Shown: positions 1,757-5,688 of the stretch, one piece after another
How positions within the stretch are numbered: position 1 is the first letter of the stretch
Layout of the letters: each line of letters opens with the position of its first letter
Assembly (NCBI GenBank): GCA_013152925.1
Contig: JAADFK010000152.1
Location: forward strand, 1 to 53,227
Direction of reading: 5' to 3'
DNA length: 53,227 bases
Source: Acidobacteriota bacterium
GTDB taxonomy: Bacteria > Acidobacteriota > Thermoanaerobaculia > Thermoanaerobaculales > Sulfomarinibacteraceae
The notes under the pieces: generated by a model
What the model was told of the DNA's origin: nothing
Seen by the model: the letters and a program-made list of their open reading frames with translations, nothing else
Databases searched by the model: none
Made by a program: the position numbers and the translations under genes

Positions 1757-2491
1757 ATGAACGACATCATCGAGCTTCTGGAGGAACACCGGAGCGTGCG
1801 GGCTTACGAGGACCGCGACGTTTCCGACGAGATGCTGGATGCCATCGTCCGGGCGGCGTGGCGCGCACCGAGCTCGTACAACGCCCAGGAGGTCTCCGTT
1901 GTGGTGGTCCGGGACCCCGAACGGCGCCGCCGCATCGCCGAGATCGCCGGCGGCCAGCCCTGGATCGCCCAAGCCCCTGTCTTCTTCGCGGTGGTCATCG
2001 ACTACCACAAGACGGCCGTCGGCGTTGGAATGGCGGAGGGCGAGCAGCGGATCCACCGCGAGCTGGAGGGCGTGATCATGGGCGCCGTGGATGCGGGGAT
2101 CGCCCTGGAGGCGTTGATGGTGGCCGCCCGGGGACTGGGGCTGGCCATCGTGCCCATCGGCGGGATCCGGCGGGACCCCCAGGCGATGATCGACCTCCTG
2201 GAGCTGCCTCCGCTGACCTTCCCCGTGGTGGGATTGTGCGTCGGCCATGCGGCCGTGGTCAATCCGCTCAAGCCGAGGATGGCCCTCCCGAGCTTCCGTC
2301 ACGAGGAGGTCTACCGGGCGGAGCGGATCCCGGCCGCCATCGAGGCCTACGACCGGGAGATCGTCGCCCACTGGCGCCGCGTCGGCCGGCCGGGAGGCGA
2401 GGCATGGAGCCGGAACATGGCCGCCTACCTTGGTGCGGGAGAGCCCCGGCCCGTGGGGGAGGCGCTCCGGCGGCAGGGTTTCCTGGCGTGA
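1757..2491 (+). CDS. Nitroreductase family protein (NfsA/NfrA-like, FMN-dependent)
   Basis: 244 aa. The N-terminus IIELLEEHRSVRAYEDRDVS and the following WRAPSSYNAQEVSVVVV are the FMN-binding signature of the NfsA/NfrA branch of nitroreductases. GLGLAIVPIGGIRRDP and FPVVGLCVGHA complete the fold. Such enzymes use NAD(P)H to reduce flavins, nitroaromatics or quinones in the cytoplasm. I chose ATG 1757 over the in-frame ATG at 1715 because GGGAGGTG (1743-1750) sits just upstream. The stop overlaps the GTG of the next gene (GTGA), implying translational coupling to the Cys-cluster protein. The physiological substrate is unknown. Confidence 0.85.
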   Translation: MNDIIELLEEHRSVRAYEDRDVSDEMLDAIVRAAWRAPSSYNAQEVSVVVVRDPERRRRIAEIAGGQPWIAQAPVFFAVVIDYHKTAVGVGMAEGEQRIHRELEGVIMGAVDAGIALEALMVAARGLGLAIVPIGGIRRDPQAMIDLLELPPLTFPVVGLCVGHAAVVNPLKPRMALPSFRHEEVYRAERIPAAIEAYDREIVAHWRRVGRPGGEAWSRNMAAYLGAGEPRPVGEALRRQGFLA

Positions 2492-2916
2492 TCGGACCGG
2501 CCGAGCCCGAAGCACAGCACCCCTGCACGGCCAACACATGCACGGCGTGCTGTTTCGAGACCCGTCTCAGCCTCCTGGACGAGGATCTGGCTCGCCTCGA
2601 GGCGGCGGGTCATCACGGGTTTGCCGTCCGGGACGATCGCGGGTACCTGCGCCTGCGGAACGAGCGGGGGTGTTGTGTCTTCCTGGGCCGGGAGGGGTGC
2701 TCGGTCTACACGATCCGGCCGGACGGCTGCCTGACCTACCCGCTGGTGTATTACGAGGAGGACAACGATGTGGACTTCGATACCTACTGTCCGCACTGGC
2801 GGAGCTTCGGCCGCCGGCCGGGGGTCGTCCTCCGCGTCCTGCGCTCCATCTGGATCGACGATCGCCAGGCCGCGCTCCGGAGGAGACTCCATCGGCGGGG
2901 AGATATCCCGTGTTGA
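2488..2916 (+). CDS. YkgJ-family cysteine cluster protein
   Basis: 142 aa. The pattern CTANTCTACCFETR near the N-terminus, RGCCVFLGREGCSVYTIRPDGC in the middle (only parts are needed for recognition) and YCPHW near residue 110 is the conserved cysteine set of the YkgJ / Fe-S-or-Zn cluster family (formerly UPF0153). These proteins are thought to bind a metal cluster; the biochemical role is unsettled. The GTG start at 2488 overlaps the stop of the nitroreductase by four bases, so the two are likely co-expressed and may share a redox role (inference). A large in-frame extension upstream is only antisense-type noise inside the nitroreductase gene. Confidence 0.8.
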   Translation: MIGPAEPEAQHPCTANTCTACCFETRLSLLDEDLARLEAAGHHGFAVRDDRGYLRLRNERGCCVFLGREGCSVYTIRPDGCLTYPLVYYEEDNDVDFDTYCPHWRSFGRRPGVVLRVLRSIWIDDRQAALRRRLHRRGDIPC

Positions 2917-2945
2917 GAGCGGTATGCCCTCTCGCCAGGGGGGTC

Positions 2946-2974
2946 TTTTGTGGCGGCGGGTTTTCGTGTACGAT
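2946..2974 (+). promoter_or_regulatory. Candidate promoter for tRNA-Glu
   Basis: TTTTGT (2946-2951) and TACGAT (2969-2974) are separated by 17 bp. Both match the sigma-70 hexamers only partly, and the start site would be about 40 bases before the mature tRNA. Confidence 0.3.
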
Positions 2975-3020
2975 GAGCGTCCCGGTGGCCGTACCGGGGT
3001 GACAATCGAAACGGTCGTGC

Positions 3021-3098
3021 GACCCCATCGTCTAGCCAGGTCCAGGACACCGGCCTTTCACGCCGGCAACACGGGTTCAAATCCCGTTGGGGTCGCCA
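3021..3098 (+). tRNA. tRNA-Glu (anticodon TTC), CCA encoded
   Basis: The acceptor strands GACCCCA (3021-3027) and TGGGGTC (3088-3094) pair perfectly, with discriminator G3095 and encoded CCA 3096-3098. The anticodon arm is CCGGC-CTTTCAC-GCCGG, with anticodon TTC at 3057-3059. The T arm contains GGTTCAAATCC. The D arm begins TCGTCTAG, as is usual for glutamate tRNAs. A run of seven T residues (3101-3107) directly follows and probably ends transcription. Confidence 0.96.
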
Positions 3099-3107
3099 TC
3101 TTTTTTT

Positions 3108-3287
3108 GGCCCGACGATCCCGGTGGTTTCCTGCTGCGACCGGGGATCCGCCGGCCATTGCGGTGTTTCTCCCGGCGGCACCGCCTGCGACGTACCGCTG
3201 GTACGCCTCGGCGGTGCCTTGGTCGAAACACCACACTGGCGGGCGTCTTCCCGGTCTCGCGACGGAAACCACCGGGATCGTCGGGCC
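3108..3287. repeat. 180-bp imperfect palindrome abutting tRNA-Glu
   Basis: The outer arms 3108-3131 and 3264-3287 are perfect 24-base inverted repeats. Inner pairs continue the same stem: GGTGTTTC (3162-3169) with GAAACACC (3225-3232), GGCACCGCC (3177-3185) with GGCGGTGCC (3210-3218), and CGTACC (3191-3196) with GGTACG (3200-3205) around a 3-base tip. All share one centre near 3198, so the whole element can fold as a single long hairpin. No reading frame in it looks coding. It may be a MITE-like or chromosomal hairpin repeat; no other full copy was noticed in the window. Confidence 0.85.
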
Positions 3288-3410
3288 TGAAGGATTGGGG
3301 GGGGTGACGAAGCGCTACCGGGCCTTGGCGTGCCGCGGGGCGTGATTCGGGGGCGGGTTGCCGGGACGGTGTTGGCGGGACGGCGGTGGCGGGAGAGTGG
3401 TCCCCCTCGG

Positions 3411-3440
3411 CCGTTCTGCTGCGACGACGGAAACCACCGC
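3411..3440. repeat. Possible fragment of the tRNA-linked palindrome
   Basis: CGACGGAAACCACCG (3425-3439) repeats a 15-base piece found at the inner edge of the right arm of the palindrome at 3108-3287. The preceding TTCTGCTGCGAC resembles the left-arm flank (TTCCTGCTGCGAC). It may be a decayed second copy. The surrounding 3288-3490 holds no convincing gene. Confidence 0.45.
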
Positions 3441-3490
3441 CAGACGTGGTGCATTCTGCCCTGCAGCAAATGGATGGTGAACTGCCGGAG

Positions 3491-3847
3491 CTAGAGCATC
3501 GAGGCCCGGAGATCCTTGATGCGGCGGTGCAGCTCGACGGCGGCGGCGCGGGCTGCAGCGTCGGCGGGCTTGATCCGTTTTTCCACCTGGACCAGCTCCC
3601 GTTCGATGCGATCGAGGGAATTCAGTGCCGCGGTGGCCTCGGAGCTCGTGTCCACGCCGGAGATGGCCGCCCCTTTGCCCGCCGTGTCGTAATCCCTGGC
3701 CACGGAGGCCAGCTCGGAAGAGAGCCGTTTGATCTCCTTCGCCTCGGCACTCTGACCCAGGCCAAGGGTCAACGACCCGCCGGTGAAGTGCTGGACGGCC
3801 AGCACGGCACCCGCGACGACGATCAGTACGAGCAGCAGCTTCCTCAT
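3491..3847 (-). CDS. Small membrane-anchored protein of unknown function
   Basis: 118 aa. A basic MRK start and one hydrophobic segment (residues 4-20, LLLVLIVVAGAVLAV) are followed by a mostly helical, charged domain with heptad-like Leu/Ile spacing (EIKRLSSELASVARDY, LDRIERELVQVEKRI). It is likely anchored in the inner membrane with a periplasmic coiled coil, or secreted. I chose the ATG at 3847 because GGAGGG precedes it; an upstream in-frame ATG at 3877 has no such support. I recognise no family. Confidence 0.65.
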   Translation of the reverse strand: MRKLLLVLIVVAGAVLAVQHFTGGSLTLGLGQSAEAKEIKRLSSELASVARDYDTAGKGAAISGVDTSSEATAALNSLDRIERELVQVEKRIKPADAAARAAAVELHRRIKDLRASML

Positions 3848-3936
3848 GACATCCCTCCAGGCATCACGAATGGACATCCCATCCTAACACCGGATGGTTG
3901 CGCCGGGAGGCGTCTGGCCCCACAATCGATGGAGCA

Positions 3937-4206
3937 ATGACCGGGGTGCCCTTGATCGCCAGGGTGGAATGCCGCAGCGAGGCTCGCGGCGAGGATCGGC
4001 CGGTCGCCGTCTGGATCGGCGGCCGGCGTTTCGTCGTCGAGCACCTGGACCAGGAACGCCTGGAAGGCCCGCCGGAAGCCGGGGGTACGGTGCGCCACGT
4101 GGTATCCGTGGCCCTGGAGGACGGACGGCGGCTCCGCCTCGAGCGGAGGCTCCCCGAGGGTCCCTGGCGTGTGCTGCTCCTGGAGCCCTCCCCGAGAAAC
4201 CGCTGA
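3937..4206 (+). CDS. Small hypothetical protein
   Basis: 89 aa, soluble, with alternating hydrophobic and charged residues suggesting a small beta-rich fold (PVAVWIGGRRFVVEHL, RHVVSVALEDGRRLRLERRL, WRVLLLEP). No catalytic motif is seen. GGAG lies very close to ATG 3937; a TTG at 3898 would add 13 residues. It is transcribed divergently from the small membrane protein and convergently with lat. The composition is more protein-like than the shadow frames nearby, but the call rests on that alone. Confidence 0.45.
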   Translation: MTGVPLIARVECRSEARGEDRPVAVWIGGRRFVVEHLDQERLEGPPEAGGTVRHVVSVALEDGRRLRLERRLPEGPWRVLLLEPSPRNR

Positions 4207-4212
4207 GCAGGA

Positions 4213-5571
4213 TTATCCGGCGGTGCGGACGATGGCTCGGTCCAGGGCGGCCAGGCCCTCCCGGATATCCTCGGCGGTGACGTCGAGGAAGGGGCGGAAC
4301 CGGATGGAGCGCTCGCCGCACGGCAGGGCGAAGACACCCTCCTCGCGGCCGGCGGCCAGGGCGCGGTTGCGAACCTCCACGTTCGGAAGGTCGAAGGCGC
4401 ACATGAGCCCGCGGCCGCGGACGTTGGAGATCGCAGTGGGATGGGCGGCGGCCAGATCGTGCAGCCCGGCCAGGAGGAGCTCTCCCTGCCGGCGGGCGTT
4501 GTCCACGAGGTTCTCGTCGTGGATGATCTGGAGGTAGCGCGTGGAACGCACCATGTCCACGATGTTGCCGCCCCAGGTGGAGTTGATCCGCGACGAGACG
4601 TGGAAGACGTTGTCTTCCACCTCGTCGATGCGGGATCCTGCGGCGATGCCGCAGACCTGGGTCTTCTTGCCGAAGCAGAAGATGTCGGGCTCCACGCCGA
4701 GACCCTGCCACGCCCACCAGGTGCCGGTCAGCCCGAGCCCCGTCTGGACCTCGTCGAAGACCAACAGAAAGGTGTGCTCGTCGGCCAGACGTCGGAGCTC
4801 GGCCAGGAACTCGGGACGGAAATGGTTGTCGCCGCCCTCGCCCTGGATGGGCTCGACAATCAGGCAGGCGATGTCGTCCCCATGCCGGCGGACGGCCTCC
4901 TCGATCTGTTCGATGGCCCGGGCCTCGGCGGCCTTAACCCCCTCCAAATGATCCGCCAGGGGGAAGATCATCTTGGGGTTGTCCACCCGGGGCCAGTCGA
5001 AGGTGGGGAAGAACTGTGTCTTGCGGGGGTCCGCCGTGTTGGTCAGGGAAAGAGTGTAGCCGGTCCGGCCGTGGAAGGCCTGCCGGAAGTGGAGCACCTT
5101 GCTCCCTTGTTCGCCGCCTCCGCGAGCCATGTTGGAACGGACCTTCCAATCGAAAGAAGCCTTGAGGGCGTTCTCCACCGCCAGGGCGCCTCCCTCGATA
5201 AAGAACAGATGGCCGGCGTGGCTGGCGGGGACAGCAACGGTGGCAAAGGTCTCGACGAACTCGGCCATCAGGGTGGTGTAAACGTCCGAGTTGGCCGGCT
5301 TGACCAGGGCCGCCCGGCCAAGATGCTCGATGAAGGCGGGCTCGACCATCCGGCGGTGGTTGTAGCCGATGGGGGTTGAGGCGAAGTTGGTGTAGAAGTC
5401 GATCAGCGTCTTTCCGGTCAGGGAATCCACGAGACGGGAGCCGTGGGAAGCCTGGTAATCGGGAACCACGTGAAAACCGTCCACCAGCATGTGACGGCGG
5501 AGAACATCGTGGACCTTGGCGGGGCTTATGCTTGTGGCGGCCGCACCGGCCTCCTGTTGTACCTGGGACAT
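4213..5571 (-). CDS. lat: L-lysine 6-aminotransferase (lysine epsilon-aminotransferase)
   Basis: 452 aa, class III PLP aminotransferase. LAT-specific stretches include FYTNFASTPIGYNHRRM, FFIEGGALAVENALKASF and the PLP region VFDEVQTGLGLTGTWW, followed by DIFCFGKKTQVCG with the Schiff-base lysine. The enzyme moves the 6-amino group of lysine to 2-oxoglutarate, giving 2-aminoadipate semialdehyde (in equilibrium with piperideine-6-carboxylate). That is the entry to lysine catabolism or, in some actinomycetes, beta-lactam synthesis. ATG 5571 is preceded by AGGAGGTAAGC; 17 further in-frame codons upstream are unlikely. It lies 117 bases downstream of infC on the same strand, and no lysine-pathway partner is adjacent. 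Confidence 0.88.
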   Translation of the reverse strand: MSQVQQEAGAAATSISPAKVHDVLRRHMLVDGFHVVPDYQASHGSRLVDSLTGKTLIDFYTNFASTPIGYNHRRMVEPAFIEHLGRAALVKPANSDVYTTLMAEFVETFATVAVPASHAGHLFFIEGGALAVENALKASFDWKVRSNMARGGGEQGSKVLHFRQAFHGRTGYTLSLTNTADPRKTQFFPTFDWPRVDNPKMIFPLADHLEGVKAAEARAIEQIEEAVRRHGDDIACLIVEPIQGEGGDNHFRPEFLAELRRLADEHTFLLVFDEVQTGLGLTGTWWAWQGLGVEPDIFCFGKKTQVCGIAAGSRIDEVEDNVFHVSSRINSTWGGNIVDMVRSTRYLQIIHDENLVDNARRQGELLLAGLHDLAAAHPTAISNVRGRGLMCAFDLPNVEVRNRALAAGREEGVFALPCGERSIRFRPFLDVTAEDIREGLAALDRAIVRTAG

Positions 5572-5688
5572 GCTTACCTCCTGGATCGGCACGGACCGCA
5601 GTCCGGAGGCCGTGATTTGCAAACCCCACCCGCGACGATCGCAGGCGGCCTGTCCTGTGGGGTGAAGGCTTCAGGAAACGCCCAGTCC

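Follow-up and report, generated by a model that had tools for sequence, protein, structure and literature searches.

The near-perfect palindrome at positions 3108-3287 of the window (the whole analysed stretch of 53,227 nucleotides, contig C152 of a 3.67-Mb Acidobacteriota genome) is one copy of a dispersed family of long hairpins, and the family is probably a non-autonomous, MITE-like palindromic mobile element, recognised largely by its hairpin, whose insertion behind genes is either tolerated or favoured. An earlier note on the same DNA had offered a MITE-like element as one of three readings, beside a hairpin RNA processed from the adjacent tRNA transcript and a recombination or attachment structure. 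The first of these is now supported by dispersed copies, species-specific occupancy, an empty site, YTAR flanks and an excess of 4-bp direct repeats; for an attachment site no evidence was found.

The window copy has a copy-specific 5′ outer arm (3108-3131), different in every aligned copy, and a complementary 3′ outer arm (3264-3287); the two match perfectly over 24 nt, as the earlier note had described, with 132 nt in between. The conserved hairpin core of 134 nt (3131-3264), where the covariance model R1 described below scores 142 bits, begins with the mismatch motif CTGCTGCGA (3131-3139) and ends with the mismatch motif CTCGCGACG (3256-3264), both conserved in alignments A3 and A4. Further in, alignment A3 shows a conserved motif CATTGCGG on the 5′ side (3156-3163), a motif CCACACTG on the 3′ side (3231-3238) that is mismatched to CATTGCGG at fixed positions, and, in agreement with the fold, a conserved apical hairpin CCTGCGACGTAC..GTACGCCTCGG (3184-3211). 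All of these features are on the forward strand. Folding of 3108-3287 gave one nested 180-nt hairpin of -140 kcal/mol, compared with a mean of -81.0 kcal/mol (sd 4.1) for shuffled sequences (z -14.35), and none of 200 shuffles was equally stable; the fold is far beyond chance.

The element directly follows a tRNA-Glu(ttc) gene on the same strand (3021-3098; ARAGORN, and Rfam RF00005 at 62 bits), but since the ARAGORN prediction ends at 3098 the gap before the palindrome is nine bases and not the ten previously counted. The gap is a T-rich run (3099-3107) that is likely to be the end of the tRNA transcription unit. In the window this T-run precedes the element, the hairpin is not followed by a U-tract, and no terminator-like site was called there. 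Apart from the tRNA, an Rfam scan of window positions 2000-5000 returned matches below the gathering score, none of them within 3108-3287, and in a scan of six element loci the gathering score was reached by tRNA alone; membership of the element in an Rfam family was rejected because no covariance model matched within it at the gathering score over these regions.

A blastn search with the element returned 26 rows in the host genome. The covariance model R1, built from 16 host copies, returned 44 rows there, which by manual count are 30 distinct places plus 14 rows in which the same hairpins were matched again on the opposite strand. With at most 28 candidates scored per genome, R1 matched (E 0.01 or better) in 45 of 119 genomes, among them 18 of 19 further genomes from the host's taxonomic family; with eight candidates scored per genome across the Acidobacteriota, it matched at 1e-4 in 27 of 396 genomes, 13 of them outside the class. 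The same layout of arms and motifs was seen in six of nine out-of-class loci, the remaining three (L327, L328, L331) having been viewed off centre. Phage and plasmid collections searched with element-containing queries yielded no match to it; the plasmid matches listed for a query that included the tRNA-Glu gene fall in that part of it. The titles and opening abstract text of one open literature library named no acidobacterial family of this kind.

The element is short, dispersed, present in many copies and codes for no protein, as expected of a MITE. In intact copies the core between CTGCTGCGA and CTCGCGACG measures 133-135 nt, most often 134, with arms of 24-25 nt outside it, and the internal mismatches of CTGCTGCGA with CTCGCGACG and of CATTGCGG with CCACACTG are kept across copies. 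Arm sequence is conserved in other genera, where the canonical ends read TAGCCCG..CGGGCTA, and 13 of 20 genomes of the family contain an 18-base end pattern (reversed control pattern, 0 of 20). Truncated, internally deleted and tandem copies are also present in the host genome. Two copies (L257:263-332 and L268:276-344) are reduced to about 70 bp, with both ends retained and most of the core lost. A tandem pair (L024:950-1310) is near-identical over the first 100 nt of the core and different in the 3′ thirds and the arms; its first hairpin is near-perfect and its second is decayed.

The evidence that pairing is maintained while sequence changes comes from alignment A4, which consists of 14 host copies with their arms. 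Mean pairwise identity is 73% in the core and 46% in the arms (29% being expected by composition), so that the terminal inverted repeats expected of a MITE are conserved in relatives and not in the window subfamily. Nevertheless each copy has 16 to 24 Watson-Crick pairs of a possible 24 between its own arms, and 12 of the 14 have at least 20. Double compensatory changes affect 50 of 68 pairs, and 94.8% of cells are paired; when the core stems were analysed by themselves, 25 of 44 predicted pairs had such changes. A4 contains 187 double-change cells, where shuffles gave 52.7 and slid controls no more than 40, and all five covariation measures lie beyond 500 shuffles and far beyond the slid controls; as the structure was partly derived from the same sequences, it is the size of the contrast with the slid controls, not its mere sign, that counts as evidence. 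That pairing persists while sequence changes suggests that the folded strand, be it RNA or DNA, is what is recognised or has a function. An excess of A-C over G-T mismatches, which would favour the complementary strand, was found in a broad set of copies (160 versus 47 in the arms, 284 versus 56 in the outer stem of the core), where a few fixed positions dominate it; the 14 host copies have 19 versus 13.

Complementary arms might also arise by intramolecular template switching or arm-to-arm conversion instead of selection. Quasi-palindrome correction is a known mutational process, and mirrored changes are clustered in the arms of one pair of orthologous elements (L199/L200), which are each other's nearest copies at 82% identity, with flanks 79% identical; 20-21 of 23 arm pairs are kept in this pair despite about eight changed positions, at least six of them mirrored, and the 5′ arm also codes for the end of the upstream gene. 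Conversion would, however, erase the internal mismatch motifs unless its tracts skip them, and in A4 those motifs persist while the stems on either side covary, which makes this explanation rather unlikely. A chance or assembly-derived inverted duplication, the outcome foreseen by the earlier note if no second copy existed and the arms were not conserved in sister genomes, is rejected by the fold relative to shuffles, the dispersed copies and the covariation. Further copies exist, and the lack of conservation of the window site in sister genomes, which did prove to be the case, is expected of an insertion in this lineage.

Mobility is indicated by comparison of occupied and empty sites. Nine sister genomes could be read for 125 bases past the tRNA-Glu gene, and the element is absent from all nine. 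At the site of an insertion in genome G013 (L202), genome G008 has an empty junction of two convergent genes nine bases apart; the TAG of the element ends the upstream gene about three codons earlier in G013 than in G008, and G013 lacks any counterpart of some 20 bases at the G008 junction. Inspection by eye found the element absent from the same junction in G007, G003, G001 and G009, and in G000 the flanks are on separate contigs. In G005 an element (L427:638-738) sits at the 3′ end of the same gene as in G013 (L202:1457-1480) in the opposite orientation; each supplies a TAG stop codon where relatives have TGA, and the two insertions are independent.

The empty site also bears on whether the arms could be host palindromes, such as terminators, into the loop of which the core was inserted. 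Copies are found where terminators would be expected, and the targets of the Yersinia repeat YPAL span or adjoin dyad symmetry (PMC2229807). Against such an origin, arm length is nearly constant at 24-25 nt, arms in other genera are common to unrelated sites, and the empty G008 site contains neither a palindrome nor any trace of an arm. Derivation of the arms from the target is therefore largely refuted and very improbable.

Flanks were compared in 98 elements with both ends located, out of 138 passed by a strict filter from a loose set of 445 entries that served otherwise for nearest-neighbour look-up alone. The left flank is YTAR in 64 of the 98. Identical 4-nt flanks occur in 29, where shuffling gave 14.7 and no more than 26 in any of 2000 rounds; five of these 29 are non-palindromic direct repeats (1.2 expected, p 0.0045), a number that makes the evidence for target duplication modest. 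The earlier note had asked for further copies with target duplications; copies were found at about 30 places in the host, and 4-bp repeats are in excess across the family. No flanking direct repeat is visible at the window copy itself. Sites are poorly shared between species, comparison of flanks having identified four orthologous occupied sites. Besides L199/L200 these include L291/L294, 94% identical, in which L294 has lost pairs by decay and not by compensation. In the other two (L334/L361 and L343/L378) the gene junction is shared and each element is nearer to copies elsewhere, indicating that the site was re-used or the copy replaced.

The position of the copies relative to genes was evaluated with gene calls from a crude codon-usage script. 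Of the 14 copies in A4, 11 begin no more than about 10 nt from a same-strand gene 3′ end: seven at stop codons, two at tRNA genes and two at terminator T-runs. The exceptions are L018, L124 and L011 (1006-1174). Across many genomes the bias is weaker: among 95 rows collected automatically, at least five of which look spurious or duplicate (the second rows of L110 and L146, the 125-nt row of L152, L164 and the first row of L169), a gene on the same strand adjoins 52 on the 5′ side, its stop codon lying at -25 to +5 in 29, and 11 of 45 convergent 3′ neighbours end equally close.

Besides tRNA-Glu, tRNA-Lys and tRNA-Gln genes each precede a host copy, the latter a shortened one (L021) that is outside A4. 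These cases and the nine-base spacing in the window would suit a locus-specific small RNA cut out of the primary tRNA-Glu transcript; but protein genes precede most host copies, and the tRNA-Glu site is unoccupied in the readable sister genomes, so this second reading of the earlier note is most improbable.

The fixed orientation and close abutment to 3′ ends in the host, and the many copies that sit between convergent genes, would also be expected of an RNA hairpin that benefits the host as a domesticated terminator or a stabiliser of mRNA 3′ ends, each copy being under host selection. Intact pairing in copies with unrelated arms agrees with this explanation, as does the orthologous L199/L200 pair, in which pairing has survived the mirrored changes in place. 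On the other hand, the poor sharing of sites between species, the decay of L294, and the T-run and missing terminator signals of the window copy do not fit it well; a benefit to the host is a real possibility, if the lesser one. In the mobile-element reading, insertions would survive chiefly behind genes, where the TAG of the element may serve as a stop codon or the element may lie after a stop codon, terminator or tRNA.

Dispersed copies, mobility and YTAR flanks point to transposition in trans. A limited search for an autonomous insertion sequence with the same ends, comprising the end pattern in 20 genomes and two pairs of ends 1.5 kb apart, found none; the two candidate pairs enclose host-like genes, and no reading frame between them was recognised by eye as a transposase. 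A YTAR target with a 4-bp duplication recalls IS5-type elements. Proteins of the RAYT-like Y1 type are present in these genomes, but the element is found within flanks of about 1.5 kb at just two of 30 Y1 loci, near the rough chance expectation, and a 65% complete genome (G019) has many copies and no Y1 match. RAYT is accordingly not supported as the mobiliser, and the family does not share the REP arrangement of hairpins flanking a Y1 gene. In the sole close case among the 30 loci (L398:1226-2469 in G013), the element precedes a RAYT-like Y1 gene by about 100 nt.

The proposed mechanism begins with an element of about 184 bp, the 134-nt core and arms of 24-25 nt of which would form one long hairpin. 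Recognition of the hairpin, with its fixed internal mismatches, is probably the task of a putative protein that acts on single-stranded DNA or on RNA; the same protein would move the element and insert it, mostly at YTAR sites, while duplicating 4 bp. Pairing would then matter more than arm sequence, as the drift of the stems with compensating changes suggests, and transcription running in from the upstream gene would give that transcript a long duplex hairpin at its 3′ end.

Conserved ends define most of the short mobile repeats known from bacteria. In the present case, from a phylum that has few model organisms, the pairing of the arms is kept and their sequence is not. It is conceivable, though doubtful, that the family exemplifies a structure-recognised class of mobile elements, the ends of which are known by hairpin shape and internal mismatches, with arms private and self-complementary in each copy, and which are guided to where transcription units end at the 3′ side, be it a stop codon, a terminator or a tRNA, and may repeatedly re-occupy the same gene end across species. 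If recognition by structure is true, the family would provide a natural system for hairpin-directed transposition and a test of palindrome survival. Its location behind genes is relevant to the question of how mobile hairpins come to form the ends of transcripts.

Judged by description, the known repeats nearest in kind appear to be YPAL, NEMIS and ERIC. YPAL (RU-2) of Yersinia is described as a long hairpin of about 168 bp that is not A+T-rich, is mobile by the comparison of filled and empty sites and is transcribed through from upstream genes, with internal inverted repeats, no terminal TA motif and duplications of 3-26 bp (PMC2229807). By these descriptions the acidobacterial element resembles it in size, long hairpin and mobility, but has terminal inverted repeats, mostly YTAR flanks and 4-bp repeats. 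The Correia elements or NEMIS of Neisseria have 24-bp terminal inverted repeats and a target duplication, and their hairpins in transcripts are thought to be RNase III substrates (PMC2229807); by description these terminal repeats are defined, whereas the arms of the window subfamily vary between copies, and the end motif differs. ERIC (RU-1) is described as a single long stem-loop, intergenic and co-transcribed (PMC2229807, PMC2267715), which differs from the acidobacterial element in its 127-bp length, its seven contiguous terminal pairs and its occurrence in Enterobacteria and Vibrio. REP units, of 20-40 bp with GTAG or CGTC tags (PMC3733652), and BIMEs are likewise intergenic palindromes, but the acidobacterial hairpin is longer and has no Y1 association.

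Downstream of the intact window copy lies a remnant of about 52 nt (3430-3481) of element subfamily B, the arms of which are near TAGCCCGGATTATTCATCA; it is 83-89% identical to the subfamily B copies L125, L127, L128, L135 and others. The aminotransferase gene further downstream (4213-5622) has its nearest named relative, at 81% amino-acid identity, in a metagenome-assembled genome of the Thermoanaerobaculia, followed by other acidobacterial metagenome-assembled genomes.
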